Source: Blastocatellia bacterium (GTDB taxonomy: Bacteria; Acidobacteriota; Blastocatellia; Pyrinomonadales; Pyrinomonadaceae). Taken from it: a DNA stretch of 64,000 nt. The notes under the pieces are model-generated. The model was not told the DNA's origin, ran no database searches, and saw only the letters and a program-made list of their open reading frames with translations. Positions 1 to 19,906 of the stretch are shown in pieces. The first letter of the stretch is position 1; each line of letters begins with the position of its first letter. The stretch covers positions 248,001-312,000 of the forward strand of contig PMSM01000013.1 in the NCBI GenBank assembly GCA_003168335.1, given 5' to 3'. Made by a program: the position numbers and the translations under genes.

Positions 1-1333
1 TTGAAGGCGAAAGAATTTCGTCCATCAACGCCTGAGCAGCGGGCAGCAGAGCCAGGCGCCCACTCAGCGCGGCCTTCATCAGGCGGCCGGGAATCAACAT
101 GCGATTGATTTCATTCGTGCCCTCGAAGATCCGATTGATACGCGTATCGCGATACGCGCGTTCGGCCGGATAGTCGGCTGAGTAGCCATAACCGCCAAAA
201 ATCTGGACCATCTCATCGGTCACGTAGTCGCAGTATTCGGACAGCGCCACCTTGATGATCGAGCACTCGGCTGCGTACTCCTCAATCGCTTTCAAGCGCG
301 CGTCCATGTCTTTGGAATCCGCGACGGCGCCGAGCCCTTCTTCAATCATTCCCAGCGTCCGGTAGATCATAGCTTCGCCGACCCAGGTGCGGATCGCCAT
401 TTCGCCGAGCTTTGATTTGATCGCGCCAAACGACGAGATCGACTTGCCGAACTGCTGGCGCTCGTTCGCGTAACGCACGGACTCATGCATGGCGAGTTTC
501 ATTCCGCCCAAACACATCGCTCCCAACTTAAAGCGACCGATGTTGAGGATGTTGAAGGCGATCTTGTGTCCCTTGCCGACCTCGCCGAGCAGGTTCTCGA
601 CCGGAGTCCTGGCGTCGGCCAGAATCAGCGGTGTGGTGCTCGAGCCTTTGATGCCCATCTTGTGTTCTTCCGCGCCGCTCTGGCAGCCTTCCTGCCGCTC
701 GACGATAAAGGCGGAAAACTTATCACCGTCAACCTTCGCGAAAACGATAAAGATGTCGGCAAAGCCGCCGTTGGTGATGAACATCTTCTCGCCGTTGAGA
801 ATGTAGTCCTTGCCGTCATCGCTCAGCCTGGCGGTCGCCTTCGCGGCCATCGCGTCCGAGCCCGAACTCGCTTCAGTCAAGGCGTAGGCCGTGACCAAAT
901 CACCGGCGGCAATCGGCGGCAGATACTTTTGCTTCGCGGCTTCCGTGCCGAAATAGATGATCGGGAGCAGGCCGATGCCGCTCTGCGCCCCGAGCGTGGC
1001 GGCAAACGAAGCGGACCGTCCAAGGTTCTCAGCAATGATCGCGCCGCTGGTCTGATCAAGTCCCAGACCTCCGTACTCTTCCGGGATGTTTGCGCCCACC
1101 AGCCCGAGGTCGGCGGCGCTCTTCACCAATGCGCGCGCCAGCTTCCAGTCTTTGTTTTCGAGTTCACCGATGCGTGGTTGCACCTCCGCGTCCATGAATT
1201 GCCGCGTGGTATCGGCGATCATGCGATGCTCTTCGTTGAAATCACCGGGGGTGAAGATTTCTTCCGGAGTGCGCTCTTCAATTAGAAAGCTTCCACCCTG
1301 GACAATCTTTTTCGCTTCGATTGCGGCTGCCAT
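1..1333 (-). CDS. fadE: Acyl-CoA dehydrogenase (FadE-like), C-terminus off the left edge
   Basis: Flavoprotein catalysing the first oxidation of fatty acyl-CoA beta-oxidation. The reading frame starts at ATG 1333, after an AAGGAA ribosome-binding site, and is open to base 1 (444 codons seen). Visible are the acyl-CoA dehydrogenase N-terminal and middle domains, with a YALTEASSGSD segment near residue 170, and the IFEGTNEINR segment with the family's catalytic-type Glu at about residue 404. Relatives of the long form (about 590 residues) carry another 150 or so, so the C-terminal domain is probably missing here only because the window ends. It is the third gene of fadN-fadA-fadE, the same order as fadNAE in Bacillus subtilis. 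The family is certain; chain-length specificity cannot be read from the sequence. Confidence 0.93.
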   Translation of the reverse strand, partial: MAAAIEAKKIVQGGSFLIEERTPEEIFTPGDFNEEHRMIADTTRQFMDAEVQPRIGELENKDWKLARALVKSAADLGLVGANIPEEYGGLGLDQTSGAIIAENLGRSASFAATLGAQSGIGLLPIIYFGTEAAKQKYLPPIAAGDLVTAYALTEASSGSDAMAAKATARLSDDGKDYILNGEKMFITNGGFADIFIVFAKVDGDKFSAFIVERQEGCQSGAEEHKMGIKGSSTTPLILADARTPVENLLGEVGKGHKIAFNILNIGRFKLGAMCLGGMKLAMHESVRYANERQQFGKSISSFGAIKSKLGEMAIRTWVGEAMIYRTLGMIEEGLGAVADSKDMDARLKAIEEYAAECSIIKVALSEYCDYVTDEMVQIFGGYGYSADYPAERAYRDTRINRIFEGTNEINRMLIPGRLMKAALSGRLALLPAAQALMDEILSPS

Positions 1334-1433: not shown

Positions 1434-2615
1434 TCAATTCATTCTCTCGAAAATCCCCGCGGCGCCCATGCCGCCGCCCACGCACATCGTCACCATTCCA
1501 TAGCGGCCATTGCGCCGCTCCAGCTCTCGGAGAATTGAAGCGGTCAGCTTAGCTCCGGTGCAACCCAGCGGGTGACCCAGCGCAATTGCACCGCCATTAA
1601 CATTGACCTTGTCGATATCGAGCCCGAGGGTCTTGATCACCGCGAGCGACTGTGCGGCAAAAGCTTCGTTCAACTCGATTACATCAATTTGATCCAGCGT
1701 CAGCCCGGCGAGTTTCAGAACTTTTGGAATCGCGAAGACTGGGCCAATGCCCATCTCTTCCGGCGGACAGCCGGCCGTGGCGTAGGCGACAAAGCGAGCC
1801 AAAGGCTTGGCGCCCAGTTCCTTCGCGCGTGCCTCTGACATCACGACCGCGACGGCCGCGCCGTCCGACATCTGTGAAGAATTGCCCGCCGTGATTGTCC
1901 CTTTGACGTGAAATGCCGGCTTCAGTTTTCCGAGGGCTGCGGCCGACGTGTCACGCCGCGGACCTTCGTCCTTGTCGAACACCACTTCGCGATGCCGCTT
2001 CTTGCCTTTGCCGTCTAATTCTTCGACGACGACAGTCAGCGGCACCGTTTCATCCTTGAACTTGTCTGCATCCAGCGCCGCCGCTGCCCGGTTGTGCGAG
2101 CGCAGCGCGAACTCATCCTGCTCTTCACGGGAAACTTCGTATTTCCTGGCGACGTTCTCGGTCGCGAGTCCCATATTCAAATAAAAGTCTGGGTAGTGTT
2201 CGACCAAATATGGATTCGGTCGAATGATGTGACCGCCCATGGGGATCATGGACATGGATTCCAGACCACCGGCGAGCACGACCTGCGCGCCTCCGGTGCG
2301 AATCCGATCGGCCGCGATCGCAATCGATTGCAGCCCGGAAGAACAAAAGCGATTGATGGTCATGGCGCTGGTTTCCACGGGCAAGCCTGCGCGAATCGCA
2401 GCCGCGCGGGCTATGTTCATGCCTTGCTCGGCTTCGGGCATCGCGCAGCCCATGATCACATCTTCGATCTCGGCGGCTGCCAGACCCGGCACGCGAGCCA
2501 TGGCTTCTTTGATCACCGCTGCGCCCATTTCATCGGGCCGCGTATCACGCAAGGTGCCCTTGGGCGCTTTGCCGACTGCGGTGCGAACTGCCGAAACGAT
2601 TACTGCTTCCTTCAT
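1434..2615 (-). CDS. fadA: Acetyl-CoA acyltransferase (thiolase)
   Basis: Thiolase performing the last, thiolytic step of beta-oxidation (3-ketoacyl-CoA to acetyl-CoA plus shortened acyl-CoA). At 393 residues it has normal family length. The nucleophile Cys91 sits in NRFCSSG. The C-terminal HPLGCTGA and [10 protein letters not shown] motifs hold the catalytic His and the second Cys. The start is ATG 2615, where the conserved [12 protein letters not shown] begins; an upstream in-frame extension to 2672 only translates the repeat element. AGAGGA five bases before the start serves as ribosome-binding site. It lies between fadN and fadE in one operon. Confidence 0.96.
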
Positions 2616-16842: not shown

Positions 16843-17292
16843 ATGCCTTTTCGCGAAAGCAGTGGATTTACACGCGCGCCGGGCTCCGCCGAGCGTTGGC
16901 TGCGACGGATCTTTGTCGAAGACTGGGGTCTGAAATTATTGGCGCTGGCGATTACCCTCGTGCTCTGGTTTGTAGCATCCGGACGTCAAGTTGAGCGTGA
17001 GCTTACCGTTGAGCCGCGAGTGGAAGGAAGACCCGCCCCGACCTACGAAGTTAAAGAAGTCCTGGTCACGCCCGGCAAAGTTCGAGTAACCGGACCCGCA
17101 GGTCACGTGAACGCGCTCGAGAAAGCCCGGACCGAAGAAATATCAATCGAAGGCCGGCGCGAGAGTTTTGATGTGCCGCAGACGGCGATCTACATTTCCG
17201 ATCCGAAGGTTGGAGTGCTCGACAAAGTCAACGTTCACGTGACCATCGTCTCCGCCGGAGATGCGAAACCAAAGCCCCGAGACGCAAATTGA
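16843..17292 (+). CDS. YbbR-domain protein (CdaR-like)
   Basis: 149 residues: one membrane segment at about residues 29-46 (LKLLALAITLVLWFVAS), then a single YbbR-like domain outside the membrane. Firmicute CdaR has several YbbR repeats; this one has a single one. It starts 6 bp after cdaA and overlaps glmM by 4 bp, so it is presumably the regulator of the diadenylate cyclase. Confidence 0.88.
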   Translation: MPFRESSGFTRAPGSAERWLRRIFVEDWGLKLLALAITLVLWFVASGRQVERELTVEPRVEGRPAPTYEVKEVLVTPGKVRVTGPAGHVNALEKARTEEISIEGRRESFDVPQTAIYISDPKVGVLDKVNVHVTIVSAGDAKPKPRDAN

Positions 17293-18677
17293 AGCCGGAA
17301 AACACCAGAAGGCTTTTCGGCACGGATGGCATTCGCGGCGAAGCCGGGAAGTTCCCGCTCGATTCGCGCACCATCCGGGTCATCGGACGATCGCTTGCCC
17401 GGCACCTCGCCGAAAGAACCGGGCGTAATCCCCGAATCGTCACCGGTCGCGACACTCGCGAATCCGGCCCCTGGATTGAAAGCGACTTGATTGCCGGAGC
17501 GCGAGAAGTTGGCGCCGAAGTCCATTCAGCCGAAATCATCACTACGCCAGGCATCGCGTTTCTTGCGCGTACCCTACCTGCCGATGCCGGGGTGGTTATC
17601 AGCGCTTCGCACAATCCCTACCAGGATAATGGCATCAAGGTTTTCGATCCTTCCGGGCGCAAGCTTGACGAAGCGACCGAGCGCAGAATCGAAAAAGATA
17701 TTGCTGAGGCATCCGGCGCGAACCCATCGGTCAACGACCAGGTTCCGGAACTCGCTGCGAATGAAAAGCACGCCGCTGAGTTGCGGATGCGTTATCTGAA
17801 CTATCTTGAGCACGACGTCGCGCATGATCTTCCGCTGCGCGATCTCACGATGGTAGTTGATTGTGCCAACGGCGCCGCGTACGAACTGGCGCCCGAACTG
17901 TTCGGCCGACTTGGCGCTCGCGTCGTTCCGATTAACAACCAGCCTGACGGCCGCAATATCAATCGCGATTGTGGTTCGCTGCACATTGAAGGCTTGCAGC
18001 GCCGCGTGACAGAGGAGCGCGCGGATCTGGGCGTTGCCTTCGACGGCGACGCTGATCGCGCGCTTTTTGTCGACGCGAGCGGCAATTTTGTTGACGGCGA
18101 CGCGACCATGTGGGTAATGGCTAGCGATCTGAAATCGCGGAGCGAGCTAACCGGCGACGTCGTAGTTGCAACCGTAATGAGTAACATCGGTTTGGAAATT
18201 GCGCTACGTTCGTGTGGCATCAAGCTCACGCGCGCGGATGTCGGCGACAAGTACGTCCTTGAGGAGCTGATCCGCAGTGGGGCGGTCATGGGTGGCGAGC
18301 AGTCCGGTCACATTATTTTTCCGGGCTTGAGTCTGGCAGGTGATGGAATGATCACGACCATAAGTCTGCTGCGAGCGATGCGCCATCACAATAAAACTCT
18401 GGCTGAATTGGTCGCGGGGTTTCAACGTTATCCGCAAGTGCTGGTGAACGTACGCGTCCGCGAGAGAAAACCGTTTGCGGAACTTCCGGCAGTTCAGCGT
18501 CTGGCGCGTGAGATTGAACAGCAACTCGGCGATCGCGGGCGGCTCTTATTACGGTACTCCGGCACTGAATCGCTGGCTCGCGTCATGATCGAGGGTGAGA
18601 GTGAAAGCGAGGTCACATCACAAGCCAACGCTCTGGCTGAAGCTATCAGGGCCGAAGTCGGCGCCGATCAATCCTGA
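17289..18677 (+). CDS. glmM: Phosphoglucosamine mutase
   Basis: 462 residues; interconverts glucosamine-6-phosphate and glucosamine-1-phosphate for UDP-GlcNAc synthesis. FGTDGIRG is near the N-terminus, the phosphoserine loop ISASHNP has S107, the metal loop is DGDADR, and the sugar-phosphate loop RYSGTE is at the C-terminus. The start is TTG 17289, overlapping the YbbR stop codon, with no Shine-Dalgarno motif, which suggests translation by reinitiation. Third gene of the cdaA operon. Confidence 0.95.
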   Translation: MKPENTRRLFGTDGIRGEAGKFPLDSRTIRVIGRSLARHLAERTGRNPRIVTGRDTRESGPWIESDLIAGAREVGAEVHSAEIITTPGIAFLARTLPADAGVVISASHNPYQDNGIKVFDPSGRKLDEATERRIEKDIAEASGANPSVNDQVPELAANEKHAAELRMRYLNYLEHDVAHDLPLRDLTMVVDCANGAAYELAPELFGRLGARVVPINNQPDGRNINRDCGSLHIEGLQRRVTEERADLGVAFDGDADRALFVDASGNFVDGDATMWVMASDLKSRSELTGDVVVATVMSNIGLEIALRSCGIKLTRADVGDKYVLEELIRSGAVMGGEQSGHIIFPGLSLAGDGMITTISLLRAMRHHNKTLAELVAGFQRYPQVLVNVRVRERKPFAELPAVQRLAREIEQQLGDRGRLLLRYSGTESLARVMIEGESESEVTSQANALAEAIRAEVGADQS

Positions 18678-18852
18678 CTGCCGTCCGCGGTTTTCTTCCG
18701 ATTCGTTTTTGAGCAAGGTCCAGGAGTAGTCAGACCGAGAAAATCTTACCTTGCTGACAGTGAAAAAGTTGCGCTCTTGTTCCTTGCAGATCGCCTTGAA
18801 CCCGGCCAAAAAGGCCACTTATCGTACATTTCCCAATGCAATAAAATTATTA

Positions 18853-18882
18853 TTGCGCGGCATAAGTGTTGCGAAGTATATT
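18853..18882 (+). promoter_or_regulatory. Possible promoter of the structured RNA
   Basis: TTGCGC at 18853-18858, 18 bp, TATATT at 18877-18882. Initiation near 18889 would place the start just before the first hairpin of the candidate RNA. Confidence 0.4.
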
Positions 18883-18888
18883 GTGGGG

Positions 18889-19001
18889 CAAGAGAGACGG
18901 TTGGTGGATCCTCCGTCTCAAGTGGTTGCTGGGGTGAGGACAGTAACCACGAAAATGAATGGGCGCTGCGACCCCACGTTGCAGCGCCCATTCGGTTTTT
19001 T
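18889..19001 (+). ncRNA. Candidate structured small RNA, about 112 nt, three hairpins
   Basis: Three consecutive hairpins and no reading frame. Hairpin 1: GAGACGG (18894-18900) pairs CCGTCTC (18913-18919), with a 12-nt loop containing GGATCCT. Hairpin 2: GTGGTTGCTG (18922-18931) pairs CAGTAACCAC (18941-18950) with one G-U pair and a purine loop GGGTGAGGA. Hairpin 3 is a 13-bp stem (18957-18969 with 18981-18993) followed by six T, a strong intrinsic terminator. A plausible promoter ends just upstream. CCTCC at 18910-18914 resembles an anti-Shine-Dalgarno sequence and could pair with the loop of hairpin 2. I do not recognise the family; it is not 4.5S, 6S, tmRNA or RNase P by its motifs. Confidence 0.5.
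18957..19001 (+). terminator. Intrinsic terminator
   Basis: A 13-bp perfect stem, beginning GAATGGGCGCTGC and closing GCAGCGCCCATTC, with an 11-nt loop, then GG and six T. It is 280 bp after glmM, too far to look dedicated to that gene, and probably ends the small RNA above. Confidence 0.8.
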
Positions 19002-19090
19002 GACGACCCGCAGACTTCAAATCCATCCCCTAAATCTTCTTTCGTAATTTGACTCAGGATTGCATTTCGGCGTAGATACATGGCTGCTTC

Positions 19091-19906
19091 ATGCCTATGC
19101 CGTCTGCAATCTTGTCGAGGACGCGGCGTCTTCTCGTCATTACCGCGGGTTTGTTCCTGCTGGCGGGAGTCTGCGCATGTCGCAGAGGATCCAACAAGAA
19201 CGCAAACGCAAACGGCGGCGGATTGTCTTCGACCGCGTCAGATCCCGAGCAAGCAAAACGCCAGGCACAGTCGCTGGTTGATCAGGGCAAAGAGCTTTAT
19301 AAGAACGATCAAGAGGAGCAAGCGGCAGAAGTTCTTAAGCAGGCAATTGGTCAGGATCCCGGTAACGCGGAGGCCCATCTTCGTTTGGGAATGGCTTATG
19401 CCGCTCTCGGCAAGAAGGCAGAGGCCGACGAGTCATACAAGAAAGCCATCGAACTTTATAAGAAGAGAGTTCAGTCAGATCCAAAGGATGCCGGGGCTTA
19501 CTTCAATCTCGGCGAGGCGCATAGTTTTCTGCATCAGGATGAAGAAGGCGCGCGCGCCTATCGTCAGGCGACCCGCCTCAAGCCTGATGACGAAGAAGCT
19601 TTTTATCAGTTGGGAATGTCTGAAACTCGGCTCGCTCATTATCCTGAGGCTACGGCAGCGTTTAAGAAAGCTCTCGAGCTCGATCCTGATGATTATCGAG
19701 CGACCGATGCAATCGAAAATGCCCAGGAAGGGGCAAATCGAATCAAGGAAGGCAAGAAGCACGCGGAAGAGATGCTGAAGAAGCAAGCGAATCAAAACGC
19801 TAACGGGAACACAAACGCCAATTCCAATTCCGCCCGCCCGCCCGCGCCGAAGCGGAGTCCAGCACCACCCAAGCGCAGCCCGGCGAAGTCGGCGGTAAAA
19901 AACTAG
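19091..19906 (+). CDS. TPR-containing probable lipoprotein
   Basis: 271 residues. The N-terminal signal (RRLLVITAGLFLLAGVCAC) ends in a lipobox-like VCAC with Cys30, followed by an Asn-rich linker (NKNANANGGG). Three to four tetratricopeptide repeats span about 55-200. The C-terminus is Asn-rich then Pro/Ser/Lys-rich (KRSPAPPKRSPAKS). It is presumably anchored to a membrane and scaffolds protein interactions. Asn-Ala-Asn linkers after the lipidation site are common in acidobacterial lipoproteins, which is one reason for my organism guess. TTGACT and TAGATA at 19049 and 19073 form a weak promoter just upstream. Confidence 0.82.
   Translation: MPMPSAILSRTRRLLVITAGLFLLAGVCACRRGSNKNANANGGGLSSTASDPEQAKRQAQSLVDQGKELYKNDQEEQAAEVLKQAIGQDPGNAEAHLRLGMAYAALGKKAEADESYKKAIELYKKRVQSDPKDAGAYFNLGEAHSFLHQDEEGARAYRQATRLKPDDEEAFYQLGMSETRLAHYPEATAAFKKALELDPDDYRATDAIENAQEGANRIKEGKKHAEEMLKKQANQNANGNTNANSNSARPPAPKRSPAPPKRSPAKSAVKN

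Follow-up and report, generated by a model that had tools for sequence, protein, structure and literature searches.

Two described small RNA (sRNA) systems come closest in layout to the locus reported here. In Vibrio, Qrr is described in PMC10162802 as a sigma-54 sRNA gene with two upstream 5-3-5 palindromes for the NtrC-type LuxO (site TTGCAWWWTGCAA), and GlmY, according to PMC6075780, has overlapping sigma-54 and weak sigma-70 promoters together with an upstream activating sequence, TGTN12ACA. We analysed a 64-kb stretch of DNA (the window) from contig C8 of genome G000, a Blastocatellia bacterium, in which an original prediction had marked an unassigned structured small RNA with a promoter and a strong terminator. 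That label is supported by wide conservation, by covariation and by the lack of an Rfam match. Lying between glmM and the gene of a TPR protein, the element is made up of three hairpins in tandem followed by a T6 tract; it appears to be a genuine small RNA gene, so far unnamed, that one Acidobacteriota class has long kept. We suggest, with a probability of roughly two in three, that it encodes an independent, trans-acting regulatory sRNA of about 117 nt under sigma-54 control.

The RNA family and its conserved loop

The three hairpins of the original prediction are borne out at the positions given in Table 1. Its terminator description stood in part: the six T are present, and the stem has 17 counted pairs rather than 13. 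Folding of positions 18880-19002 gave a minimum free energy of -63.3 kcal/mol compared with -38.8 +/- 3.3 kcal/mol for 200 dinucleotide shuffles (z = -7.42), none of which was equally low. From the promoter geometry, the RNA probably begins near 18884-18885 and not at 18853, which yields the length of about 117 nt. The absence of a reading frame had also been claimed, and this was right in substance. Although open reading frames (ORFs) of 91, 98 and 111 codons cross the region on both strands, relatives differ by 1-nt insertions or deletions between hairpins 1 and 2 and carry compensatory stem changes, and thus we regard the region as non-coding.

Relatives of the RNA are numerous within the class. 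A blastn search with positions 18820-19010 found matches in 54 of 97 related genomes, namely 53 of the 60 from the window's family and one of the 37 from the class's other families. We then used a covariance model (R1) built on alignment A1, which holds 52 of 69 collected rows, chosen by the letters GTGAGGACA, with near-duplicates and the differently built L066 omitted. The model matched 76 of 119 genomes of the family, 94 of 162 genomes of the class and, in a draw across the phylum, 17 of 347 genomes, all in the window's class; few candidates were scored in these large searches and filters were stricter, so that copies may have been missed. The 18 matching genomes outside the window's family belong to families f2, f6 and f8 (best E-values <= 8.5e-6). 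When a titled genome collection was scanned with the pattern TTGC-N12-GGGGCAA-GAGA-...-TGAGGA, 72 stretches came up, of which the model confirmed 60 and none of the remaining 12, one of these from an elusimicrobiote. All confirmed stretches are titled Acidobacteria/Acidobacteriota, Blastocatellia, Chloracidobacterium or Pyrinomonadaceae/Pyrinomonas, and they include the isolate Pyrinomonas methylaliphatogenes K22 (L191; Blastocatellia, Pyrinomonadaceae). Several genera carry further copies of the RNA which, by eye, have other promoters.

The covariance check proposed with the original prediction was run on these relatives, and the stems are conserved. In A1, 15 of 22 base pairs show two-sided changes (3-8 in slid controls) and 97.1% of cells are paired. 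The covariation score was 0.351 against 0.188 +/- 0.008 after shuffling, and none of 500 shuffles reached any of five measures, although kinship among sequences can by itself exceed shuffles. This comparative evidence shows the three-hairpin RNA to form a covarying family within one Acidobacteriota class.

The best conserved part of the RNA is hairpin 2. Its loop letters GTGAGGA were found in all 70 loci recovered by blastn with the whole 191-nt query; the 52 of 52 in A1 say nothing about conservation, as that alignment was picked by loop letters. Among 32 loci from the covariance model, 31 have TGAGGA and 30 GTGAGGA, with TGAGAA in L140, and in other families the loop reads AGGGTGAGGAA, TGGTGAGGA or near variants. 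Hairpin 1 is variable outside the window's family, within which 45 of 52 alignment rows have GGTGRANCC, and the terminator stem varies freely, with YCCA in its loop in 53 of 66 distinct loop combinations. The CCTCC at 18910-18914 had been proposed to bind Shine-Dalgarno sequences and to pair with the hairpin-2 loop. It occurs in 31 of 52 aligned family rows and in none of 23 distant rows (an antisense match in L123 was excluded from 24). Neither proposal is supported by this distribution, and we reject CCTCC as a conserved anti-Shine-Dalgarno element: judged by its letters across relatives, the conserved element of the RNA is the hairpin-2 loop, not CCUCC.

A kissing interaction between the hairpin-2 and terminator loops is likewise unsupported. 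Over the 66 loop combinations, mean duplex energy was -5.67 compared with -5.63 for letter-shuffled terminator loops, with p <= 0.05 in two; the shuffling preserves C-richness, so that letter order alone was tested. In a single case, L107 (match 1501-1619, minus strand, family f8), the hairpin-2 loop is UAAAGUGAGGA in place of GGGUGAGGA, the terminator loop is the longer GUUUACCUCCCAC, and parts of the altered loops are complementary (GUAAA/UUUAC).

No family of Rfam 15 matched at gathering score anywhere in the window, as the original prediction had anticipated for known small RNAs. At the RNA locus (E <= 10) there were sub-threshold matches only, with E from 0.39 up, the best being MIR5534 (18.4 bits, cut-off 79) and STnc380 (17.5 bits, cut-off 60). 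Neither Qrr nor GlmY/GlmZ, for which Rfam presumably holds models, was listed among them. The same is true of Acido-1 and Acido-Lenti-1, Acidobacteria motifs reported as Rfam families in a 104-motif study (PMC2864571). Two Acido-Lenti-1 matches near threshold (36.7 bits, cut-off 37, and 26.6 bits) lie beside a loop-bearing paralogue at L068:134-179 (minus strand) and 266-311 (plus strand). Across 20 homologous loci (E <= 10), the RNA itself drew no recurrent family; the overlaps, each single and sub-threshold, were tpke11 in L061 (28.8 bits, cut-off 43), CC0196 in L066 (18.2 bits, cut-off 35) and ncS01 in L067 (20.6 bits, cut-off 58). In a body of literature with few subscription papers or preprints, a search on small, noncoding or structured RNA in Acidobacteria, Blastocatellia and Pyrinomonas found no report of this RNA, and the loop sequence GGGGUGAGGA was not found in the literature searched.

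The sigma-54-type promoter and its upstream boxes

The promoter-like pair of the original prediction is present by eye, but it does not amount to a simple sigma-70 promoter: the element shared among relatives is an overlapping sigma-54 box, and a sigma-70 scan needing 9 of 12 matches did not list the TTGCGC/TATATT pair of the window. We aligned 60 distinct ungapped 50-nt stretches upstream of GGGGCAA copies, of which 38 come from the family and 21 from outside it (L061, a family row outside both groups, also has TGGCAC-N5-TTGC); copies lacking GGGGCAA or cut by a contig end are omitted from the counts. GG and GC stand at sigma-54 -24/-12 spacing in 38 of 38 family promoters and in 21 of 21 from other families. 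Eighteen of the latter keep the same register to GGGGCAA, and the box is shifted in L070, L105 and L111 (family f8). TATATT, in contrast, is present in 32 of the 38 family promoters but absent from all 21 others. As the sigma-54 box is found in all the counted GGGGCAA copies and TATATT in the window's family alone, the sigma-70 pair appears to be a family-level addition, and the shared promoter is probably of sigma-54 type and ancestral. By eye, the copy next to glmM in certain other genera of the family carries a TTGCC...TATATT pair, with neither GGGGCAA nor a sigma-54 box.

Palindromes about 100-150 nt upstream look like candidate sites for an enhancer-binding protein. In 66 promoters, the best GTGTAA-N3-TTACAC dyad scored a mean of 9.8 of 12, compared with 7.4 in letter shuffles, and 63 of the 66 reached at least 9, as did about 7% of shuffles. 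Seven promoters have perfect 12/12 palindromes, all but one starting 97-149 nt before the -24 GG. Many promoters have a second box, often 23 nt further upstream, as read without a shuffled control. RpoN is encoded in 92 of the 97 genomes. PrsR was considered as the activator and found above the TIGR02915 cut-off in 0 of 97 genomes, with 15 or 16 sub-threshold NtrC-like matches listed per genome.

Scanning for the enhancer plus sigma-54 layout gave one match each in 15 of 97 genomes, 13 at this RNA and two elsewhere; the reversed control gave four, and thus the two other matches are within chance. These two are L220, where an enhancer palindrome and sigma-54 box precede a small ORF, and L230, where the layout precedes a small protein with a signal-peptide-like start and a glycine-rich stretch, followed by a gene that by eye is polysaccharide chain-length-like.

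Table 1. Coordinates of the RNA, its promoter region and flanking genes in the window
Feature	Position	Strand	Basis or remark
glmM (phosphoglucosamine mutase), third gene of cdaA-ybbR-glmM	17289..18674	+	TIGR01455, 530.8 bits (cut-off 447.55)
Distal upstream activating sequence-like box GAGAAAATCTTACCT	18737..18751	+	degenerate, 8/12 to GTGTAA-N3-TTACAC
Proximal upstream activating sequence-like box GTGAAAAAGTTGCGC	18760..18774	+	9/12 to GTGTAA-N3-TTACAC; starts 99 nt before -24 GG
Overlapping sigma-70-like pair TTGCGC-N18-TATATT	18853..18882	+	by eye; TTGCGC 18853-18858, 18-nt spacer, TATATT 18877-18882
Sigma-54-type -24/-12 promoter, CGGCAT-N5-TTGC	18858..18872	+	promoter alignment of relatives
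5' leader GGGGCAA, predicted RNA 5' end ~18884-18885	18885..18891	+	spacing from -12
Hairpin 1, loop GGTGGATCC	18894..18919	+	fold, alignment
Hairpin 2, conserved loop GGGTGAGGA at 18932-18940 (shared loop module)	18922..18950	+	fold, covariation, loop counts
Intrinsic terminator hairpin, C-rich loop ACCCCAC	18956..18994	+	fold, covariation
T6 tract, predicted 3' end	18996..19001	+	sequence
TPR-protein gene	19091-19903	same strand as RNA	ORF starts 90 nt downstream

The loop module in other elements

The complement of the hairpin-2 loop was searched for as an mRNA target site, and the search led to loop-bearing elements on the opposite strand, not to targets. In six genomes of the window's genus it returned 52 sites compared with 11 for the reversed pattern. 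We classified 51 of these: five of the window's type, 12 of type B, four of C, two of D, two of E, four of F (two loci with two sites each), six belonging to a single-genome repeat and 16 without a site-aligned relative (the names B-F are our own). Type B is built of a C-rich CCGCCTCCCCGGTGGGCG hairpin, a loop hairpin with GGGGTGAGGA and a terminator with loop CTTGTGGGAGGG; its members are L260, L267, L268 and L271 in G000, and L232, L236, L239, L241, L246, L257, L258 and L278 elsewhere in the genus. Type C (L243, L269 and L272 in G000, L252 in G001) has the loop hairpin followed in turn by GGCTGAACGTCTCCGCC, a further hairpin whose loop resembles CCCTAAAG, and a terminator with CTTGTGGGAGGG; TTGACA-N16-TAGAAT lies upstream of L272. 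In types D and E (L233, L256; L249, L277), it is the terminator-like hairpin that carries GGGGTGAGGA in its loop. In one genome of the genus, G005, five loci (L254, L259, L281, L282 and L284) have a different repeat, CCCTCTCCGC..GCGGAGAGGGGG followed by GGGGTGAGGA that looks like an unrelated palindromic repeat. Outside the genus, L126, L128-L131 and L134 (genus g9) and L066 (genus g29) show the loop hairpin, a AGGCTGAANGCCT-like hairpin and a terminator, some with TTGAC...TA--AT upstream by eye.

Within G000, the ten-base loop occurs at 13 sites including that of the window, with 11 in hairpin loops (stems of 4-13 pairs, read without a shuffled control), one unpaired and one in a long ORF. 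L268, one of the 11, overlaps an end of a 186-codon ORF that runs on the opposite strand. The letters CTTGTGGGAGG, a loop of types B and C, occur nine times in G000 (control 0) and seven times in G001 (control 1), and elsewhere mostly near control except in G092 (19 compared with 5); by position, seven of the nine G000 sites are no more than about 85 nt from a site of the loop-complement search. By eye, there is no support for the terminator loop pairing with this CTTGTGGGAGG loop, as CCCCAC or GCCCAC in the window's genus leaves about 5 bp. The CUCCCAC form of the terminator loop would pair over 7 bp with CTTGTGGGAGG, a loop commonest within the family in the window's genus.

Repetition of this kind could be the mark of a mobile or repeated DNA element, of the REP (repetitive extragenic palindrome) or MITE (miniature inverted-repeat transposable element) type, in which the hairpin would serve as a DNA recognition site. 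The recurrent loop sites fit this, as do the type B copies, of which G000 has at least four and which within the genus are mostly 84-97% alike over ~70-160 nt. However, the copy in the window keeps its place behind glmM across many genera and shows compensatory stem changes and conserved promoter elements, and the flanks of many loop sites are unrelated: for 16 of the 51 there was no aligned relative. We consider this the least probable of the explanations weighed here.

The same reuse bears on what the loop recognizes. The 12-mer GGGGTGAGGACA occurs at 144 sites in 60 genomes of the family compared with six for the reversed control, and at up to 14 sites in one genome (G051). So many sites in one genome would suit an RNA whose GGGGUGAGGA loop is the site of an RNA-binding protein, the RNA acting as decoy or co-factor and not by base pairing. 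CsrB, as a decoy or co-factor for CsrA, is one precedent, and GlmY with RapZ is another. Also in favour are the retention of GTGAGGA in 70 of 70 blastn loci while the stem covaries, and the position of the same loop at the apex of hairpins in differently built elements. Against it, the analysis turned up no candidate protein. CsrA can be excluded as the partner in general, and we reject a CsrA sponge of the CsrB/RsmZ type, as PF02599 was found in eight of 97 genomes and not in G000. Protein binding is thus the main rival to base pairing, and in our judgement an unlikely one.

Loop reuse hints at an undescribed regulatory network. We are evenly divided on a broader reading, in which the class would carry an sRNA network formed by the widespread sigma-54-driven RNA and several lineage-specific sRNA types that differ in build and promoter but display the same hairpin loop, GGGGUGAGGA. 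Signals would converge on one partner, be it a protein that binds RNA or a site shared by RNAs, through a loop that behaves as an exchangeable module, and the founding promoter would have moved from sigma-54 through overlapping sigma-54/sigma-70 to sigma-70 within one family.

Independence, function and described systems

In the window, cdaA (TIGR00159, 217 bits), ybbR (Pfam) and glmM precede the RNA, and the TPR-protein gene and rpsL follow it. Of the first 70 loci, 37 have glmM upstream in the same orientation; the remainder include many further copies and stretches too short to reveal it. Such an arrangement would suit a 3' untranslated region or terminator that serves the cdaA-ybbR-glmM operon and is conserved just to end its mRNA. 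Yet the RNA has conserved promoter elements of its own, and termination needs neither hairpin 1 nor hairpin 2, the latter being best conserved. Moreover, glmM was not found within 3 kb in 22 loci of families f2, f6 and f8 (L116 excluded), where neighbours differ by eye. We give this explanation very little credence.

An equally small chance attaches to a cis-acting leader or riboswitch-attenuator of the TPR-protein gene, with the terminator as its off state. Hairpins directly before a terminator, with a same-strand ORF a short distance downstream, are what such a leader would look like. However, among the 22 distant loci the first ORF after the RNA (mechanically called) is on the opposite strand in 11 and on the same strand in 10, with L113 unclear, and riboswitch matches at the locus are all below threshold, the Na+ riboswitch (DUF1646 motif) scoring 14.0 bits compared with a cut-off of 40.5. 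Because in these distant loci the next ORF is so often on the opposite strand, glmM is not within 3 kb and neighbours vary, the RNA is best seen as an independent unit and hardly as a cis leader.

The independent, sigma-54-controlled sRNA that we favour could work as follows. An NtrC-type enhancer-binding protein, answering some signal, would switch the RNA on, and the terminator would release it. The exposed hairpin-2 loop GGGGUGAGGA, perhaps with the C-rich terminator loop, would then recognize a common partner, which may well be mRNAs bound by base pairing with the help of Hfq. Other scaffolds with this loop and sigma-70-like promoters would open the partner to several inputs. At E <= 0.001, Hfq was detected in 92 of the 97 genomes, G000 among them, and 90 of these exceeded the cut-off; we regard Hfq-assisted mRNA pairing as the most likely mode, ahead of loop recognition by a protein.

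Several observations weigh against this proposal. Invariance of the loop fits protein binding and pairing equally, and Hfq and RpoN are also encoded by genomes that lack the RNA, and hence do not discriminate. At the promoter, several glmM-side copies without the GGGGCAA leader show no sigma-54 box by eye, the best enhancer box in the window's own genus scores just 9-10 of 12, and the sigma-70-like pair alone could drive the RNA of the window. The distribution is also uneven: in genus g8, G112 and G116 match the covariance model and the other listed genomes do not. Finally, in 37 genomes outside the family the 12-mer GGGGTGAGGACA is not enriched (18 sites compared with 12 in the control), because most loops there differ by one or two bases.

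These findings offer an entry point to the sRNA biology of a large phylum: a conserved RNA, the type of its promoter, candidates for its enhancer boxes and an isolate carrying the gene. Modular evolution of sRNAs would be clearly exemplified by one loop reused on several scaffolds per genome. The succession of promoters, from sigma-54 type to sigma-70 type, can be traced across living genera.

Reuse of one short loop in several sRNA copies per genome is known from the cyanobacterial Yfr2 family and the alphaproteobacterial 'cuckoo' RNAs. The elements described here share that habit, but their loop, GGGGUGAGGA, is not known from those two families, and their scaffolds differ between types. Whalefall-1 RNA (RF01762) has the stretch GGGUGAGGAC in common with our RNA, but scores 9.2 bits against a gathering score of 37, and only this short unpaired stretch aligns. 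With GlmY/GlmZ of Enterobacteriaceae, the likeness at sequence level lies in overlapping sigma-54/sigma-70 promoters, found here in the window's family alone. The RNA gene of that family also adjoins the glucosamine-pathway gene glmM. This parallel may be coincidence, as the 3-kb loci of other families do not have glmM. The window locus, moreover, has no Rfam match. The Vibrio Qrr genes share the sigma-54 -24/-12 box with upstream activator-like sites (degenerate in the window) and the presence of several copies in some genomes (Qrr1-5). They differ in phylum; the recurrent palindrome here reads GTGTAA-N3-TTACAC, and the LuxO site reads TTGCAWWWTGCAA. The window RNA resembles both Qrr and GlmY in promoter layout, but none of the sequence evidence marks it as a member of either family.
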